A stretch of DNA of 64,000 nt from an uncultured Alistipes sp. (GTDB lineage Bacteria > Bacteroidota > Bacteroidia > Bacteroidales > Rikenellaceae). Both the position numbers and the translations under genes were made by a program. Location: NCBI GenBank assembly GCA_947364365.1, contig CANASP010000002.1, forward strand, positions 62,001 to 126,000, read 5' to 3'. Shown here in pieces: positions 2 through 31,371 of this stretch; position 1 is the first letter of the stretch; every line of letters starts with the position of its first letter. Under the pieces are notes generated by a model that saw only the letters and a list, made by a program, of their open reading frames with translations, was not told where the DNA came from and did no database searches.

Positions 2-2044
2 AAGCTCAACTCGGTGGAGCTGACGGACAAGGGCCACGAGGCGCTGTCGAAGTTCTTCAACGAGGACGGCTTCTTCGTGCTGCCCGACATCGGCGCCGAG
101 GTGGCCGAGATCGAGAAGAGCGACCTCACGGCCGAGGAGAAGGCGCAGCGGCGCGACGCTGTGATCAACGACTACTCGGTCAAGTCGGAGCGCGTCCACA
201 CCGTCCACCAGCTGCTGAAGGCCTACGCCATGTTCGAGAAGGACATCGAGTATGTGGTGATGGACAACAAGGTGAAGATCGTCGACGAGCAGACGGGCCG
301 TATCCTCGAAGGGCGCCGCTACTCCGACGGCCTGCACCAGGCCATCGAGGCCAAGGAGCACGTCAAGGTCGAGGCCGCGACGCAGACCTTCGCGACGATC
401 ACCTTGCAGAACTACTTCCGCATGTACCACAAGCTGGCCGGTATGACCGGTACGGCCGAGACGGAGGCTTCGGAGTTCTGGTCGATCTACAAACTGGACG
501 TCGTGGTGATCCCGACCAACCGGCCCGTGCTGCGCGACGACCGTCAGGACCTGATCTACAAGACCAAGCGCGAGAAGTACAACGCCGTGATCGAGGAGGT
601 CGTCAAGCTCGTCGGAGAGGGCCGGCCCGTGCTCGTGGGCACCACGTCGGTGGAGATCTCGGAGCTGCTGAGCCGCATGCTGAAGCTGCGCGGCATCAAG
701 CATAACGTACTGAACGCCAAGCAGCACGCGCTGGAGGCACAGGTCGTGGCCGAGGCCGGCCGCTCGGGCCAGGTGACCATCGCCACCAACATGGCGGGCC
801 GCGGTACCGACATCAAGCTCACGCCCGAGGTCAAGGCCGCGGGCGGTCTGGCGATCATCGGCACCGAGCGCCACGAGAGCCGCCGCGTCGACCGCCAGCT
901 GCGCGGCCGTGCCGGCCGTCAGGGCGACCCCGGATCGTCGCAGTTCTTCGTCTCGCTGGAGGACGACCTGATGCGTCTGTTCGGCTCGGGCCGCATCGCC
1001 ACGATGATGGACCGCATGGGTCTGAAGGAGGGCGAGGTGATCCAGGCCGGGATGATGACCAAGGCGATCGAGCGCGCGCAAAAGAAGGTCGAGGAGAACA
1101 ACTTCGGCATCCGCAAGCGTCTGCTGGAGTACGACGACGTGATGAACTCGCAGCGCGAGGTGATCTACACGCGCCGCCGCCACGCATTGTACGGCGAGCG
1201 GGTGGAGATCGACCTGAACAACATCATGTACGACTACGCCGAGAACTTCGTCGAGGAGCACCGCGGCATCGAGCTGGAGGATTTCCGCTTCGAGCTGATC
1301 CGCGAGGTGGCCGTCGAGCCGTCGATCGACGCGGCGACCTACGCCTCGGCCAAGCCCGAGGAGCTCGTCGAGGCGATCGTCGCTGACCTGAAGGCCGCCT
1401 ACGCCCGCCGCGCCAAGGCCGTGGCCGACACGGTGCGTCCCGTCATGGAGCGCATCTACGAGGAGCGCCGCGAGCAGCTCGATTCGAACATCTACTTCCC
1501 GCTGACCGACGGCCACCTGGGCTACAACGTGCCGGTGAACCTGCGCCGCTGCCAGGAGACCGACGGAGGGGAGATATATAAGGTATTCTCGAAGGTGGTG
1601 ATGTTCACCTCGATCGACGACGCATGGCGCGAGCACCTGCGCGAGATGGACGACCTGCGCCAGAGCGTGCAGAACGCCTCCTACGAGCAGAAGGACCCGC
1701 TGCTGATCTACAAGTTCGAGTCGTTCGGGCTCTTCTCGAAGATGCTCGTGAAGGTCAACCGCGAGGTGCTCTCGATCCTGGGCCGCGCTTACGTGCCCGT
1801 GAGGGAGCAGCGCCCCGACGAGGCCGAGCGCCAGCGCCAGATGCAGCTGCAACAGCAGCGCGAGCGCGCCAAGGTCGACGTCAACAAGTTGCAGGCCTCG
1901 CGCATGCAGGCCGCCGCGCAGGCCGGGCAGGGCGAGCGGCAGAAGCCCATGCCGATCCAGGCCGAGAAGAAGGTCGGACGCAACGACCCCTGCCCGTGCG
2001 GTTCGGGCAAGAAGTACAAGAACTGCCACGGAAAGGGATTGTAA
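2..2044 (+). CDS. secA: Protein translocase ATPase SecA, C-terminal part (5' end outside window)
   Basis: SecA is the cytoplasmic ATPase that drives unfolded preproteins through SecYEG. The frame is open from base 2, so the start lies outside the window and about 680 codons are visible. What remains covers the end of NBD1 and preprotein cross-linking region, NBD2 with MAGRGTDI (near base 795) and the arginine-rich [16 protein letters not shown], the helical scaffold and wing, and a C-terminal zinc motif [13 protein letters not shown]. That tail normally binds SecB or ribosomes. A short Gln/Arg-rich linker precedes the zinc motif. The nearest upstream ATG or GTG codon should not be taken as a start, because the reading frame continues to the window edge. 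Identification is certain. Confidence 0.98.
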
Positions 2045-2064
2045 CCGATTGAAAATTTAAATTC

Positions 2065-2088
2065 AAGGGCGGGCTGCGGCCCGCCCTT
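2065..2088 (+). terminator. Hairpin after secA
   Basis: A perfect 10-bp stem (AAGGGCGGGC / GCCCGCCCTT) with a TGCG loop lies 21 bases after the secA stop. No T-run follows, so it may be a weak terminator or an mRNA 3' stabiliser. Confidence 0.5.
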
Positions 2089-2106
2089 GCTGCAAACGAC
2101 GCAGAG

Positions 2107-2541
2107 ATGGGATACCAGGAAGAAAAACAACGGCAGCTGGACATGCGCTACCTGCGCATGGCCCGCATCTGGGCCGAGAACTCCTATTGCGTGCGACGCA
2201 AGGTCGGGGCGCTGATCGTCAAGGACAAGATGATCATATCGGACGGCTACAACGGCACCCCCTCGGGATTCGAGAACGTCTGCGAGGAGAACGACCGCAC
2301 GAAGCCCTACGTGCTCCACGCCGAGGCCAACGCGATCACCAAGGTGGCCAAGTCGGCCAACAACTGCGACGGGTCGACGCTCTACATCACGGCGGCGCCC
2401 TGCATCGAGTGCTCGAAGCTCATCATCCAGGCGGGCATCCGCCGCGTGGTCTACTCCGACGACTACCGCTCGGAGGAGGGGCTCTCGCTGCTGCGCCGCG
2501 TGGGCATCGAGTGTGTGAAATACGACCTGGCTACGCTCTGA
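2107..2541 (+). CDS. Deoxycytidylate (dCMP) deaminase family protein
   Basis: This 144-residue cytoplasmic zinc enzyme probably deaminates dCMP to dUMP, feeding thymidylate synthesis. The zinc site is complete: H71-A-E73 with E73 as the proton shuttle, and P98-C99-I-E-C102. The segment DGYNGTPSGFENVCE (residues 46-60) is typical of dCMP/ComEB-type deaminases rather than cytidine or tRNA adenosine deaminases. Length matches the family. The gene follows secA after a hairpin and ends 14 bases before the start of a GH76 lipoprotein, so the two may share a transcript although their functions look unrelated. Confidence 0.9.
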   Translation: MGYQEEKQRQLDMRYLRMARIWAENSYCVRRKVGALIVKDKMIISDGYNGTPSGFENVCEENDRTKPYVLHAEANAITKVAKSANNCDGSTLYITAAPCIECSKLIIQAGIRRVVYSDDYRSEEGLSLLRRVGIECVKYDLATL

Positions 2542-2555
2542 CAAACCGAAAATTC

Positions 2556-3884
2556 ATGCGATTCGACTCTTTTCACGCAGCCGTCGCGGCGTGCCTGCTG
2601 GCGGCGGCGGTATCGTGCGGCTCGCGCGACCTGCCATCGGCGATCACGCCCGACGACGCCTGGAAGGCCTACGATGCCTTCAACAGCACGTACCTCGACC
2701 CGGTCAAACACATCTACAAGAACACCGACCGCGATTCGGCCGCCGTCGACCGGTGGAACGGCGCCGCCGCCATCTGGTGCCAGCCCATGTATGTCGACAT
2801 GGCGATGAACGCCTCGGAGCTCGCCGCGCGGGCCGGCGACGCCCGCCGTGCCGCCCGCTACCGCGACCTTGCCGCGCGACTGCTCCGGGGCAATATCGAC
2901 CACTATGCCGGATTCGACTTCGACGACGGGAACACCAACACGGGATGGTTCATCTACGACGACATCCAGTGGTGGACCATCACGCTGGCACGTGCCGCGA
3001 AGTTCTTCGGCGACGACAGCTACCGCGCTCTCGCGGCCCGGAGTTTCGCCCGCGTGTGGTACGGCTCCCCGCGCATAGGCGACACGGGATCCTATGCCGA
3101 CCCGTCGAAGGGGCTCGGAGGCGGGATGTTCTGGCAATGGCAGCCGCTCGAAAATCCCGAGGCCAACCAATCCGGCGACGGCAAGATGTCGTGCATCAAT
3201 TTCCCCACCGTCATCGCCGCCATGCTGCTTCACGATCTTACCCCCGAGACACAGGAGGCCGACGACGATCCCGACCGATGGAGCAACCGGCACGGCGATT
3301 TCGTCCGCCCGCATTTCGAGACCAAAGCGCGTTATCTCGAAATAGCGCGCGAGATCTACGACTGGTCGGTGGAGAATCTGACCGATCCGGCGTCGGGCAT
3401 GGTGCACGACCACCGGCACGGCGACCGCCCGGGCGGGCATCCGCTGCTCTACAACCAGGGCACGTTCATCGGCGCCTCCGTCCTGCTCTACGAGGCGACT
3501 TCGGATCGGCGCTACCTCAACCATGCCGTAAAGGGGGCCGACTACAGCGTGGAGCGGCTCGCGACAGCCGACGGATACCTCCCCTGGGCCCACAGCGAGG
3601 AGGAGCCCTACGCGCAGGGGAGCCTCGAACAGGGCATCTATCCGGCGATATGGGCGCAGTACATGAAACGGCTCGTCGAAGCGTGCGGGGAGGAGAAGTA
3701 TCTGCCCTTCATCGAGAAAAACATGGCCGACGGATGGAAACACCGCAATGCCGAGACCTCCGTCTGCGACGGAGAGGCGGGACGGCAGACCGCCGCCGAC
3801 AACGTCATCGGCAGCTACGCCGCCTCGTCGACCCCCGCGCTGATGCTGCTCTTCACTCCGGCAGAGGCTAAAAAGCGCGATTGA
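2556..3884 (+). CDS. Glycoside hydrolase family 76 lipoprotein (alpha-1,6-mannanase-like)
   Basis: A 442-residue predicted lipoprotein: the N-terminus has a hydrophobic stretch ending at C21 (LLAAAVSC). The rest matches the GH76 (alpha/alpha)6 barrel. The hallmark adjacent acid pair is D135-D136 in IYDDIQWW, and the motif YNQGTFIGASVLLYE near residue 305 is also typical. GH76 enzymes cleave alpha-1,6-mannan backbones such as fungal mannan. The start at 2556 is chosen because it gives a normal signal peptide; the open frame extends further upstream but only as antisense-free overlap with the deaminase gene. No SusCD pair is adjacent, so this copy stands outside a classic PUL. Family call strong, exact substrate inferred. 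Confidence 0.88.
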   Translation: MRFDSFHAAVAACLLAAAVSCGSRDLPSAITPDDAWKAYDAFNSTYLDPVKHIYKNTDRDSAAVDRWNGAAAIWCQPMYVDMAMNASELAARAGDARRAARYRDLAARLLRGNIDHYAGFDFDDGNTNTGWFIYDDIQWWTITLARAAKFFGDDSYRALAARSFARVWYGSPRIGDTGSYADPSKGLGGGMFWQWQPLENPEANQSGDGKMSCINFPTVIAAMLLHDLTPETQEADDDPDRWSNRHGDFVRPHFETKARYLEIAREIYDWSVENLTDPASGMVHDHRHGDRPGGHPLLYNQGTFIGASVLLYEATSDRRYLNHAVKGADYSVERLATADGYLPWAHSEEEPYAQGSLEQGIYPAIWAQYMKRLVEACGEEKYLPFIEKNMADGWKHRNAETSVCDGEAGRQTAADNVIGSYAASSTPALMLLFTPAEAKKRD

Positions 3885-26119: not shown

Positions 26120-27529
26120 CTAATAGCGGTAGTGGTCGGCCTTATAGGGTCCCTCGGGCTTTACGCCGATGTAGTCGGCCTGCTTGGGCGTCAGCTGCGT
26201 GAGCTCGACGCCGAGGCTCGCCAGATGGAGCCGCGCGACCTCCTCGTCGAGGTGCTTGGGCAGGCGGTAGACCCCGACAGCCAGCTCCTTCTGCCACAGT
26301 TCGAGCTGGGCGAGGCACTGGTTGGTGAAGGAGTTGGACATGACGAACGAGGGGTGGCCCGTGGCGCAGCCGAGGTTGACCAGACGCCCCTCGGCCAGCA
26401 CGAAGATCGAGTGGCCGTCGGCGAAGGTATACTTGTCGACCTGGGGCTTGATGGTGGTCTTCACGGCGCCCGACGCGTCGAGGCGTGCCATCTGGATCTC
26501 GTTGTCGAAGTGGCCGATGTTGCAGACGATGGCCTGGTCGCGCATGCGCTCCATGTGTTCGAGGGTGATGATGTCGCAGTTGCCCGTGCAGGTGACGTAG
26601 ATGTTGCCCTCGGCCAGCGCGCTCTCGACGCTCTTCACCTCGAAGCCCTCCATGGCGGCCTGCAAGGCGCAGATGGGGTCGATCTCGGTGACGATGACGC
26701 GGGCGCCGTAGGAGCGCATCGAGCGGGCGCACCCCTTGCCCACGTCGCCGTAGCCGCAGACGACGACCACCTTGCCGGCGATCATCACGTCGGTGGCGCG
26801 CTTGATGCCGTCGGCCAGCGACTCGCGGCAGCCGTAGAGGTTGTCGAACTTCGACTTGGTGCACGAGTCGTTGACGTTGATGGCCGGGACGAGCAGCTCG
26901 CCCGCCTCCTGCATCTGGTAGAGGCGGTGTACGCCCGTGGTGGTCTCCTCGCTCACGCCCCGCCACTCGGCCACCGTGCGGTGCCACTTGCCGTGGTCCT
27001 CGGCGAGGATCCGCCGCAGCGTCGAGAGGATCACCTCCTCCTCGTAGGAGGAGGGGGCGTAGTCGAGCGTCGAGGCGTCGTTCTCGGCCTTGTATCCCTT
27101 GTGGATGAGGAGCGTGGCGTCGCCGCCGTCGTCGACGATCAGCTGCGGGCCCTTGCCGCCGGGGAACGACATGGCCATGGCCGTGCACCACCAGTACTCG
27201 GGCAGCGTCTCGCCCTTCCAGGCGAAGACGGGCACGCCGCGCTCGGCGACGGCCGCGGCGGCATGGTCCTGCGTCGAGAAGATGTTGCACGAGCACCAGC
27301 GCACGTCGGCGCCCAGCTCGACGAGCGTCTCGATCAACACGGCGGTCTGGATGGTCATGTGAAGCGAGCCCATGATGCGCACGCCACGGAGCGGTTTTTC
27401 GGGGCCGTACTTGCGGCGCACGGCCATCAGACCGGGCATCTCGTGCTCCGAGACCTCGATCTCCTTGCGGCCCCACTCGGCCAGCGACATGTCGGCCACC
27501 TTGTAGGGAATCGTAGAATCCAAATACAT
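26120..27529 (-). CDS. ahcY: S-adenosylhomocysteine hydrolase
   Basis: AhcY reversibly splits S-adenosylhomocysteine to adenosine and homocysteine, relieving methyltransferase inhibition. The 469-residue cytoplasmic enzyme has tightly bound [20 protein letters not shown] is the Rossmann loop, with [13 protein letters not shown] active-site segment and the C-terminal [10 protein letters not shown] that reaches into the neighbouring subunit. Length is right for the bacterial form with the extra insert. It begins 12 bases after the upstream membrane protein and is the last gene of the long minus-strand operon. A separate promoter cannot be excluded. Confidence 0.97.
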
Positions 27530-27541
27530 ATTCAGTTGGGT

Positions 27542-28981
27542 TTAGTCGTTATCGTCCAGATAGATTTTCCGGCCGGGATGCCGGGCGCCCCAGGCGCGGA
27601 TATCGCTGCGCAGCTTCTCGCGCAGCGCCTTGTTTTCGAGCAGATGCCAGTAGTTGCACAGGAACGACTTCTCGACCTCGAACGTGTGGCGCGTGAGCCA
27701 GGGCAGGAGCCGCCGCGTGATGCGCGCCTCGAAGAAATGGTAGGCGATGCGCAGGCGCTGCCCCTCGGCGGCCCGGGTCTGCGGCGTGCAGAAGTAGACG
27801 CGGCGGTCGCTGTCGAACTTGTAGGTGCGGATCATCCGGCGGTACTCGTCCATGTATTCGCGCAGGAAGTCGTCGAGCGAGAGGTTCTTCATGTAGACGG
27901 CGTAGTAGAGGTGGGGCTTTCCGCCCTCGTAGACATTGCGGCCCACGCCCAGCAGGTAGATGTCCATCTCGTCGAGCGGCAACGGTTGCCTGCGGCCGGG
28001 CGTGCTCGTGCGCTTGTCGTAGATGCCCAGGCGGTCGATCAACCCCTGACGCACGGGCGCGACGAGCAGGTCGTAGGCCGAGAGCGGGCGTGCCGGCTCG
28101 TCGAGATCGATCTTCATGGCGATACTCGACGTGAGCATCCCCTTGGAGATCGTCGCCGTGCCGCTGCGCTGCTTGTAGAGCATCGTGCCGTCGCTCAGGT
28201 AGACGATGGCGTTGATGCCGATGTGGTTCGAGAGGTCGGACGTGCGGAGCGGCTTGAGCAGCGGGCCGTACTCGAAAAGCGACCGCACCGACACCACGTC
28301 GTCGATCACGAAGTCCATGGCGCGGTTGGTCACCAGGTGGTTGAAATAGGTGCTGCGCATGGTCTCGAACCGCAGCTCGGTCGCGCCGTCGCCGACCGGG
28401 CGGACGGCGAAGTCGGCCAGACGCAGCGTGGGATAGTTGCGCAGGAAGCACCCCCGGTGCGCCCGGAAGATCTTCAGGAAGAGCGTCTCCAGCATGTTGT
28501 TCAGCCGGAACATCCGCTCGGGATGGTCGTCGAGCGCGATCCGCAGGCGGCCGTCGGCGCTGCCCACCTCCGGCTGTCCGTCGGGCGAGGCGGCATCGGG
28601 CGCGACGCAGCGCAGGGGCGAGACCGAGGTGTTGTGGAACAGCGGGTCGTAGAAGAAATCCGTCGAGGTATCCCCGTAGAGCTCCAGGCGGCGGACATAC
28701 GATGCGTCGTAGCACTCCGACAGGTCGTCGTGGTCCTCGTGGATCTTGCGTTTGTCCTCCCAGAACAGGAGCAGCAGGTCCCACAGGTTGGAGAGAATCC
28801 ATGCGGCCAGCACACCGATGACCACCGAGACGATGATCTCCCACCGGCTCTCGGGGGCCAACAGGTAGATGGACAGTCCCCCCGAAAAGAGGCAGAAGAA
28901 GACGATAAACGTCTTGCGCGCGCGGAGCGAGAAACTGTTCGGCCGGCCTATTCGGCGGAAAATGGTATGGCGGATCGACAT
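27542..28981 (-). CDS. Membrane-anchored protein with a degenerate Nudix-like region
   Basis: A 479-residue protein of no family I recognise with certainty. Two N-terminal membrane helices (about 24-42 and 47-73) are followed by a large cytoplasmic part. Residues 250-320 (HIGINAIVYLSDGTMLYKQR ... VRQGLIDRLGIYD) resemble a Nudix fold: a strand pair, a Lys-Gly turn and a helix ending LGI. The acidic residues of the catalytic Nudix box (GX5EX7REUXEEXGU) are not conserved, so it would be binding rather than hydrolytic. The C-terminal 130 residues are rich in Arg, Tyr and Leu. It lies between a flavin kinase/dehydrogenase fusion and ahcY, 12 bases from each. Confidence 0.6.
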   Translation of the reverse strand: MSIRHTIFRRIGRPNSFSLRARKTFIVFFCLFSGGLSIYLLAPESRWEIIVSVVIGVLAAWILSNLWDLLLLFWEDKRKIHEDHDDLSECYDASYVRRLELYGDTSTDFFYDPLFHNTSVSPLRCVAPDAASPDGQPEVGSADGRLRIALDDHPERMFRLNNMLETLFLKIFRAHRGCFLRNYPTLRLADFAVRPVGDGATELRFETMRSTYFNHLVTNRAMDFVIDDVVSVRSLFEYGPLLKPLRTSDLSNHIGINAIVYLSDGTMLYKQRSGTATISKGMLTSSIAMKIDLDEPARPLSAYDLLVAPVRQGLIDRLGIYDKRTSTPGRRQPLPLDEMDIYLLGVGRNVYEGGKPHLYYAVYMKNLSLDDFLREYMDEYRRMIRTYKFDSDRRVYFCTPQTRAAEGQRLRIAYHFFEARITRRLLPWLTRHTFEVEKSFLCNYWHLLENKALREKLRSDIRAWGARHPGRKIYLDDND

Positions 28982-28993
28982 GGTGCGGAGGTT

Positions 28994-30268
28994 TTATTGC
29001 AGCAGCAGCCCGTGAAGCCGCAGCGCCGCCTCGGAAGAGGTCAGCGGGTGTCGGCCGAACGAGGCGTAGAAGTTGATATAATGCGTCGCCAGCCGATCGT
29101 CCGTGGCGCCGTCGAACAGCACCCGGCCGTCGACTGCGACCCGCTGGCGCGTGTGGTCGATCACGATCGTGCGGCCGTCGCAGGTCTCCACCTCGGTGCG
29201 CTTCTCGTCCGACGGACGCGACCAGTCGATCTCGATCTCGACCTCGGCGCCGTCGCATGCGAAGCGGCGCAGCGCGCGACGCTCGTATCCGGCGGCATCG
29301 CGCTCCGAACGGCATTCGACGGGTACCAGCCGGTCGATCGCCAGCAGCGGCTCGTAGAACGAGAGCACGTTGATCCCCCCGTCGAGCCAGGCGCCGCACA
29401 GCACCCGCCGATCGGCCCGGACCTGCCCCGCAGCGTCGCAATAGGGATCGCACGAAAGGGTGCGGATCCGCCGGATGCCGCCGGCCAGCCACTCGGCGCA
29501 CCGGGCGTAGAACCACTGCGCCTCGTTGCCGTACTGCCAGTGGAACATCACGCGGCAGGCAACGTCGGACGCCGCACCGAGCAGCGCCTCGCAGGCGGCG
29601 TAGTCGGTCGCCAGCGGCTTTTCGCACAACACGTCGCACCCGGCATCGAGCGCCGCGCGCACCGTGGCGGCATGGTGCTCGGCGGGAACGGCCACCACGA
29701 CCCACTCGGGACGCACGGCGGCGATCATCGCCCGGCAGTCGGCGTAGAAGGGCACTCCGGGGGCTTTCGAGGCGCACGAAGGATCGACGTCGCACACCCC
29801 GACCAGCTCGGCATGCGGCGAACGCCCGATGCCCAGCAGGTGCTTCTCGCCGATGACCCCCAGGCCGACCAGCGCCAGCCGCACGGGGCGCGGCGGGGCG
29901 ACGAGCGACTCGACGAGCCGCCGGTCGGCCTCGATCTGCCGGCGCAGGGCCTCGATCGAGGCGAAACACCGCTCGCCGCGGATGCGGTCGACGAGTTCGA
30001 CACGCAGGCGGCGGCCGTAGAGGTCGCCCGAAAAGCCCAGAAGATGGGTCTCCAACCGGCGCTCGGCCCCGCCGACCGAGGGGTTGCAGCCGAGGTTCGA
30101 CAGGGCGTCGAAGACAACGCCGTCGACCTCCGCACGCGAACGGTAGACCCCGTCGTCGAGCGGCAGATCCTGCGGCACGTCGAGATTGGCCGTGGGGAAA
30201 CCCAGCTCGCGGCCCAGATGCCGTCCCTGACGGACGACCCCTTCGATGATCGGGTGCGGTGCGGTCAT
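28994..30268 (-). CDS. Riboflavin kinase domain fused to Gfo/Idh/MocA oxidoreductase
   Basis: A 424-residue two-domain protein in one uninterrupted frame. Residues 7-122 are a riboflavin kinase module as found in the C-terminal half of RibF: GRELGFPTANL (20-29, with T26 and N28), LSNLGCNPSVGG, catalytic-type E73 in ETHLLGFSGDLYG, and FASIEALRRQIEAD. The usual FAD synthetase half is absent. Residues 127-424 are a Gfo/Idh/MocA dehydrogenase: VGLGVIGEKH (134-143) binds NAD(P) and CEKPLATD holds K217. The usual DxxxH catalytic pair reads D296-GGI-N300, so the His is Asn. It overlaps the permease gene by 4 bases (ATGA). Each half is clear; the joint role is unknown. Confidence 0.85.
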   Translation of the reverse strand: MTAPHPIIEGVVRQGRHLGRELGFPTANLDVPQDLPLDDGVYRSRAEVDGVVFDALSNLGCNPSVGGAERRLETHLLGFSGDLYGRRLRVELVDRIRGERCFASIEALRRQIEADRRLVESLVAPPRPVRLALVGLGVIGEKHLLGIGRSPHAELVGVCDVDPSCASKAPGVPFYADCRAMIAAVRPEWVVVAVPAEHHAATVRAALDAGCDVLCEKPLATDYAACEALLGAASDVACRVMFHWQYGNEAQWFYARCAEWLAGGIRRIRTLSCDPYCDAAGQVRADRRVLCGAWLDGGINVLSFYEPLLAIDRLVPVECRSERDAAGYERRALRRFACDGAEVEIEIDWSRPSDEKRTEVETCDGRTIVIDHTRQRVAVDGRVLFDGATDDRLATHYINFYASFGRHPLTSSEAALRLHGLLLQ

Positions 30269-31371
30269 ATCTTGTCGGTAAGCTGGCGCACGAGCCGGAA
30301 CTGGGAGAAGAACTCCTTGGCAAAGACGCGCAGCACGGTGTAGGAGGGGATCGCCAGCAGCATCCCGAGGATGCCGGCGACGGATCCCGCGACGAGAATC
30401 ACGAGAAAGATTTCGAGCGGATGGGCCTTCACCCGCTCGGAGTAGAGCGTCGGTTGCAGGATGAAGTCGTCCATCCCCTTGAGGATCAACAGCGATCCGG
30501 CGACGACGAAGGCCGTATGACCCGCCGTCATCCCCTCGATCGGCGAGACGATGCCCACCGCGACCGACACCACGCCGCCGATGAGCGGCCCGGCATAGGG
30601 GACGACGTTCATCACGCCCATCGTCAGTCCGATGAACGATGCGTCGGCGGCCTGCATGCCGAAGGCCATCATCACCAGCATGGAGGCGACGGTCAGCAGC
30701 AGGCTCTCGGCCAGGATCCCCGTGAAATAACGCGAGAGCAGCACGGTCACCTCGTCCAGCGCGCGGGTGACATTGGCGTGGTAGCGCTCGGGGAAGATCG
30801 CGGCGACCATCTCGTAGAAGAGACGGTCGTCCTTGAGGAAGAAGAAGGTGATGAACGACACGGAGAAGATCGCCACGACGATCGAGAGCGTGAGCCCCAC
30901 GATCGAGGCGACGAGCGCGTTGACGCGGTCGAGACTCACCAGACCGTGGACCGCCTCGGCGATGGCGTCGGAGAGCGAGAAGGCGCTGTCGGGAAGGGCG
31001 AGCAGATCGCCCAGGCAGCGCTGAACGCCCGCCAGAGGTTCGGCGACGCCCTCCATCGCGGCGGTGAAGTCAAGCGTGGCGAGCTGGTGGACCTTGTGGA
31101 AGACCAGCGGCACGAAGAGCGAGCCGAGCAGCGCCGCGACGGCCCAGATCACCGCGAGCGTCACCAGGGCCGCCAGCGAGCGGGGCACCTGCCATCCGCG
31201 CAGCCGCAGCCGCGAGAGACGCCCGACCAGGGGCGCGCCGACGACGGCCAGCACCGCGGCGACGAGGATGTAGACGACGATCGCCGAAAAATACCACACG
31301 AGAAACAGCGCGAGCGCGACGGCAGCCGCACCCGCGAGCGTTTTCCACACGGTCTGGGAGGTCACCTGCAT
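30265..31371 (-). CDS. AI-2E/PerM-family membrane permease
   Basis: A 368-residue integral membrane protein with about seven to eight membrane segments, including an N-terminal pair (ALFLVWYFSAIVVYILVAAV) and the family's central stretch SFITFFFLKDDRLFYE and the later GVMNVVPYAGPLIGG. Members export small molecules or act as Na+/H+ antiporters; the name AI-2E comes from one exporter of autoinducer 2 and is not proof of that substrate. It lies between psd and the fusion gene, 13 bases after psd and overlapping the fusion by 4. Confidence 0.9.
   Translation of the reverse strand: MQVTSQTVWKTLAGAAAVALALFLVWYFSAIVVYILVAAVLAVVGAPLVGRLSRLRLRGWQVPRSLAALVTLAVIWAVAALLGSLFVPLVFHKVHQLATLDFTAAMEGVAEPLAGVQRCLGDLLALPDSAFSLSDAIAEAVHGLVSLDRVNALVASIVGLTLSIVVAIFSVSFITFFFLKDDRLFYEMVAAIFPERYHANVTRALDEVTVLLSRYFTGILAESLLLTVASMLVMMAFGMQAADASFIGLTMGVMNVVPYAGPLIGGVVSVAVGIVSPIEGMTAGHTAFVVAGSLLILKGMDDFILQPTLYSERVKAHPLEIFLVILVAGSVAGILGMLLAIPSYTVLRVFAKEFFSQFRLVRQLTDKI

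Follow-up and report, generated by a model that had tools for sequence, protein, structure and literature searches.

In bifunctional RibF proteins the riboflavin kinase (RFK) domain forms the C-terminal part of a chain that also carries a FAD synthetase domain, and such proteins are about 300–340 aa long. Other arrangements have been described: according to excerpts of PMC2972280, Alistipes putredinis has a monofunctional RFK plus a type II FAD synthetase, and the plant FMN hydrolase/RFK (FHy/RFK) combines its RFK with an enzyme domain of unrelated type, namely a HAD hydrolase that acts on FMN. The gene analysed here, located in a 64,000-nucleotide stretch of DNA from an uncultured Alistipes sp. 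(hereafter, the window), has the same RFK domain as bifunctional RibF, but at the N-terminus and in a chain without the FAD synthetase domain. It shows the same split of RibF as the stand-alone RFK of Alistipes with its separate FAD synthetase (PMC2972280, excerpts) but, unlike the latter, it carries a C-terminal dehydrogenase (DH). The fusion to an unrelated enzyme domain recalls FHy/RFK, although the partner here is a NAD(P)-type dehydrogenase instead of a hydrolase of FMN (PMC2972280, excerpts). The DH, in turn, is matched over nearly its whole length by L-arabinose 1-dehydrogenase, with Lys, His, Asp and Asn similarly spaced (PMC9795676, excerpts); however, the similarity is weak, and the DH of the window is fused to RFK and has a membrane-protein gene next door. 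In the same genus, frames joining RFK to adenosylhomocysteinase (RFK-AHCY) or to LuxS resemble our gene in that the last member of the same row of genes, RFK, runs into the gene that follows; these frames have kept the downstream ATG and its A+T-rich leader, whereas here a GTG in GC-rich sequence is found.

The fusion gene is a continuous frame of 424 residues on the minus strand (28994..30268, read from 30268 to 28994), which starts with ATG and contains no internal stops. It bears out the earlier note on this DNA, in which an RFK module followed by a DH had been recognised in one frame: Pfam placed Flavokinase (PF01687) at residues 8–120 (29909..30247, minus strand; E 8.5e-34, 116.9 bits, cut-off 19.6) and GFO_IDH_MocA (PF01408) at residues 130–241 (E 8.2e-23, 81.8 bits, cut-off 24), and the Gfo/Idh/MocA dehydrogenase part, to which four relatives align throughout, extends over residues 130–424 (28997..29881, minus strand). 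Nine residues lie between the two profile matches; read codon by codon, this joint (residues 121–129; 29882..29908, minus strand) ends in a GTG (codon 129, 29884-29882), possibly left over from a start codon that the DH once had. PTAN, the Glu (E73) and CEKP, which had been pointed out as motifs of the two modules, are all present. By sequence, the best solved relatives were 1MRZ, a riboflavin kinase/FMN adenylyltransferase, for the first half (E 1.3e-18), and 3C1A, a putative oxidoreductase, for the second (E 6.9e-14).

At the sequence level RFK-DH is a real two-enzyme chain, and it was seen in one genome, the metagenome-assembled genome (MAG) to which the window belongs (2.15 Mb in 38 contigs, 87% complete). 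A search of Bacteroidetes for the same two-domain order, covering 180 genomes of the genus and 268 of the family, revealed that the architecture is not conserved, the only relative of the DH being unfused; a widespread RFK-DH architecture was rejected in these genomes at E 1e-20. A related-locus search with the fusion as query gave no match. The domain pair is apparently undescribed so far: our literature search, in agreement with the claim that no enzyme of such architecture had been described, met no RFK-DH fusion among the matches listed, and found no RFK-adenosylhomocysteinase fusion protein either. We estimate at about 0.7 the probability that the window encodes a real polypeptide of two enzymes, most likely working independently, which were joined after a two-gene unit fell behind the RFK gene; within this reading we infer the activities, the independence of the halves, the horizontal transfer, the sequence in which the steps took place and the type of substrate.

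The fused RFK has retained all the 27 columns whose conservation reaches 96% or more among 51 further RFKs of the genus (27/27), including PTAN and E73, the Glu that we take to be the catalytic residue, and it is up to 67% identical to the stand-alone RFKs of the genus. In its own, 87% complete genome, the fusion was the one Flavokinase match at E values up to 10, and the one FAD synthetase over the cut-off was a stand-alone protein of 188 aa on another contig; no FAD_syn match was found by Pfam in the fusion chain. A separate bifunctional ribF, whose presence the earlier note had proposed to check, was not found in the 87% of the genome at hand, and the missing 13% could hold one. The fused RFK is most likely the housekeeping riboflavin kinase of the organism, converting riboflavin and ATP into FMN, which the stand-alone FAD synthetase would turn into FAD. 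The absence of the FAD-synthetase half from the fused chain had thus been noted correctly, but it had been considered odd for a kinase of this type, and this part of the claim did not stand, because RibF appears to have been split in or before the genus, and is also split in A. putredinis. In fact, Flavokinase was found in 145 of 151 genomes of the genus, one in each and mostly in short frames, and in 234 of 247 genomes of the order, where the frames, judged by their length alone, were mostly of about 300–340 aa among the matches listed. In the order, unusually long Flavokinase frames were also observed at G323:C34:63759 (694 aa), G474:C36:91644 (558 aa), G437:C127:23487 (524 aa) and G308:C5:106590 (414 aa); these four may be additional fusions of RibF, or frames whose flanks simply stay open. 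The stand-alone FAD synthetase comes after a gene, presumably Rex, whose product has the domains Put_DNA-bind_N and CoA_binding (L045 5060-6287).

As for the second half, the DH has retained K217, H243, D296 and N300, which are invariant in the five aligned DHs, and the EKP motif is present in 5/5 of them. An Asn had been correctly reported in place of the His of DxxxH (D296, N300), and this DxxxN is common to all the four aligned relatives. Few solved chains gave a match covering most of the DH, and one of them was the L-arabinose 1-dehydrogenase 7cgq (5-282 of 300, E 4.9e-8 by phmmer), with weak similarity; K, H, D and N at DH positions 93, 119, 172 and 176, invariant in the five, would be the counterparts, judged by spacing only, of its Lys91, His119, Asp169 and Asn173. 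In the Azospirillum enzyme, according to excerpts of PMC9795676, these four residues are included among the contacts to the sugar, the replacement of Asn173 by His or Tyr lowers the activity by three orders of magnitude, and the H119N mutant is still active. The substitution, which had been regarded as odd, is an invariant feature of this DH subfamily, and it need not mean a loss of function, because L-arabinose 1-dehydrogenase, a member of the same superfamily, has an Asn173 of importance for its catalysis. No Pfam match was obtained for the C-terminal domain of the DH. Our best guess is that the DH is a NAD(P)-dependent dehydrogenase of the aldose type, the kind of substrate being presumed. 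The possibility that it is a copy of another gene of the same genome was discarded, as no other match was found there at 1e-20.

The fusion gene overlaps by four bases at its start an AI-2E family permease (30265..31371, minus strand; PF01594), and it is followed by the gene of a predicted membrane protein of 479 aa, here named HYP479 (27542..28981, minus strand), and then by ahcY, encoding S-adenosylhomocysteinase (26120..27529, minus strand; TIGR00936, 625.1 bits, cut-off 497.6), which was assigned also by synteny. For comparison, ten RFK loci of relatives were used, corresponding to ten of twelve fetched stretches, the other two having been fetched for other genes. RFK lay behind the AI-2E permease in 10/10 of these loci, and the fusion keeps the same upstream neighbour; ahcY came next after RFK in 7/10, and DH or HYP479 were there in 0/10. 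The fused RFK occupies the place of the relatives' stand-alone RFK, and DH and HYP479, with a gap of 12 bases between them, sit between RFK and ahcY.

Relatives of the DH were rare: at E 1e-20 one was found among the other 179 genomes of the genus, and no further one in the 268 of the family. This sole relative in the genus (G140) is unfused, is not on the contig that holds the RFK of that genome, and a relative of HYP479 comes after it. When genomes were scanned with two aligned HYP proteins, four loci were found, in three Clostridiales MAGs and in the Alistipes MAG G140; DH and HYP were adjacent, in the same order, in 4/4, overlapping by four bases when the first ATG is taken as start, and RFK was absent from all four pairs (L050 5039-7209, L051 4997-7185, L052 1978-4175 and L053 5021-7188, from two phyla). 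Because of this constant arrangement, DH and HYP479 look like a unit of their own. The two window proteins are 29–35% identical to their relatives, and the base composition of their genes is unremarkable; the patchy distribution by itself suggests that the unit probably moved between lineages. The DH-HYP479 unit would have come to lie between RFK and ahcY, and the subsequent loss of the RFK stop and of the DH's own start region would have caused the DH to be translated together with RFK.

These observations bear also on the idea of a functional coupling, proposed in the earlier note, by which the kinase would make FMN, or monitor flavin levels, for some reaction, here that of the DH and HYP479. 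The two enzymes do share a chain, their profile matches lying just nine residues apart, and the DH seems to have lost a start leader of its own, so that its production together with RFK would be enforced. However, the four other DH-HYP479 pairs occur without RFK, RFK occurs joined to ahcY and to luxS as well, as described below, and what regularly accompanies the DH is the membrane-protein gene behind it. Moreover, NAD(P) is the cofactor of Gfo/Idh/MocA enzymes, and Pfam gave no match to a flavin domain in the DH. We consider such a coupling improbable, and nothing that we observed favours flavin sensing or channelling; the fusion looks like a by-product of the gene arrangement rather than a new flavin enzyme.

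The joining of RFK to the gene that follows is not confined to the window. RFK frames of at least 400 aa were present in 13 of the 145 RFK-bearing genomes of the genus, and all 13 were opened. In eight of them RFK runs into ahcY: L057 (G024), L058 (G143), L059 (G122), L060 (G054), L061 (G019), L064 (G045, whose frame ends at the contig end), L070 (G018) and L071 (G133); the rest were the window fusion and four frames open upstream only (G023, G042, G077, G108). Among the eight frames of 250–399 aa, all of them opened, one joins RFK to LuxS, S-ribosylhomocysteinase, in 284 aa (G003; L068, plus coordinates 2003-2854, minus strand). Pfam confirmed LuxS in this frame, and AdoHcyase in both of the ahcY frames that were scanned (2/8). 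RFK is therefore joined to the next gene in at least 10 of 145 genomes, with shorter frames opened in part and contig ends that may hide fusions. As a control, we counted how often neighbouring genes share a frame in 52 loci, obtaining 0/11 for FtsH-CdsA, 0/18 for CdsA-PSD, 0/49 for PSD-AI2E, 0/50 for AI2E-RFK and 8/25 for RFK-ahcY, where the last value is not a rate, since the set is enriched for long RFK frames. The 52 genomes are in fact a non-random sample, made of those with the 30 best-scoring RFKs, those in which the RFK frame is long, G140 and the window. Since RFK joins ahcY and luxS and the four pairs upstream share no frames in the loci examined, the 3' end of RFK in the genus seems to be what tends to merge with the following gene.

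The genomes with RFK-ahcY frames do not cluster but are scattered over the branches of the genus. In a tree built by a quick method from permease plus RFK (50 rows, the two genomes without the permease being left out), the fused or separate state of ahcY needed five changes, three of them forced by well-supported branches, and 42 of 500 label shuffles needed as few as observed. Because the tree needs five changes, gain, or loss, of the RFK-ahcY fusion would have happened repeatedly. The linker between the matched parts of these frames is of 5–35 aa, the ATG of ahcY is retained, and the A+T fraction of the ahcY leader is 0.73 (mean, n = 8), compared to 0.76 when ahcY is separate (n = 17); for luxS it is 0.90. 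As both the ATG and the A+T-rich leader have been kept, ahcY may still be made alone. The DH of the window differs from the fused ahcY, as only the GTG in GC-rich sequence remains.

The repeated joining might also have been selected, if tethering or co-producing FMN synthesis with a methyl-cycle enzyme or with a redox enzyme were of advantage; the window would then be the tightest case, its partner being one that can no longer be made alone. We regard selection of this kind as rather unlikely, if slightly less so than the coupling discussed above. In the reading of two independent enzymes, which we prefer, the split of RibF in the genus freed an end of RFK, and this end is found merged with ahcY in eight of the genomes examined, with luxS in one and with a dehydrogenase in one. 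The fusions of the genus form a natural series in which to ask at what point a stop codon lost within an operon leads to a lasting two-enzyme protein. They also call for caution, as a function should not be read from a fusion seen once.

The fusion in a single MAG leads one to consider an artefact, namely that RFK and DH are two adjacent genes whose stop was removed by a sequencing or assembly error; in addition, some codons of the linker, GAG and TCG among them, differ from a stop by a single base. On the other hand, the shifted frames run for 66 codons or are open to the end of the tested stretch, without a stop near the natural end of RFK, and a single indel, and with it the frameshift between two genes that the earlier note had mentioned, is thus unlikely. 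The flanks show the synteny of the genus, which also makes a chimeric contig unlikely, and the DH is without an A+T-rich start leader, unlike the genes after RFK elsewhere. One wrong base at a former stop codon may have arisen in this single MAG, but on the whole we find it doubtful that an error joined the two genes.

The same start region is relevant to whether most of the DH arises as a separate protein, by initiation at the GTG of codon 129, with the fused form as a minor product. This GTG is two residues past the position that aligns with the start Met of the relatives, and ahcY in the RFK-ahcY frames keeps its ATG and A+T-rich leader. However, the 20 bases before GTG129 contain 10% A+T, the lowest value of ten starts, against 30–65% at the nine other starts of the window, and this speaks for translation as a fusion. 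An internal start is accordingly no likelier, in our view, than an error in the assembly, and we keep to the translation of RFK and DH as one chain.

HYP479 was characterised mainly by hydropathy, which gave hydrophobic segments at 23-44 and 45-74, and by its position beside DH relatives in other genomes. The window protein matched no family in Pfam, NCBIfam, PADLOC and PHROGs at the limits used; a search against the PDB gave one match, at E 1.2, and a profile search none. A single weak PHROG match (E 0.052) was set aside, as were weak Pfam matches of the HYP relatives, the best being DUF5009 at E 0.0064, below its cut-off. A resemblance to Nudix proteins, suspected by eye, was not significant when eight of these were compared by hhalign (E 0.49 with five HYP sequences, 0.13 with eight). 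A role in defence was dropped, as PADLOC gave no match for HYP479, DH or the fusion, the Nudix comparison was not significant and HYP479 matched no phage record and no viral contig. Distant relatives of HYP479 were observed on four records of the plasmid collection, three of which were opened. In Acetoanaerobium, a distant relative of HYP479 is directly followed by another gene (L055 5500-7579), which by eye resembles, as we presume, a phosphatase of the PP2C type.
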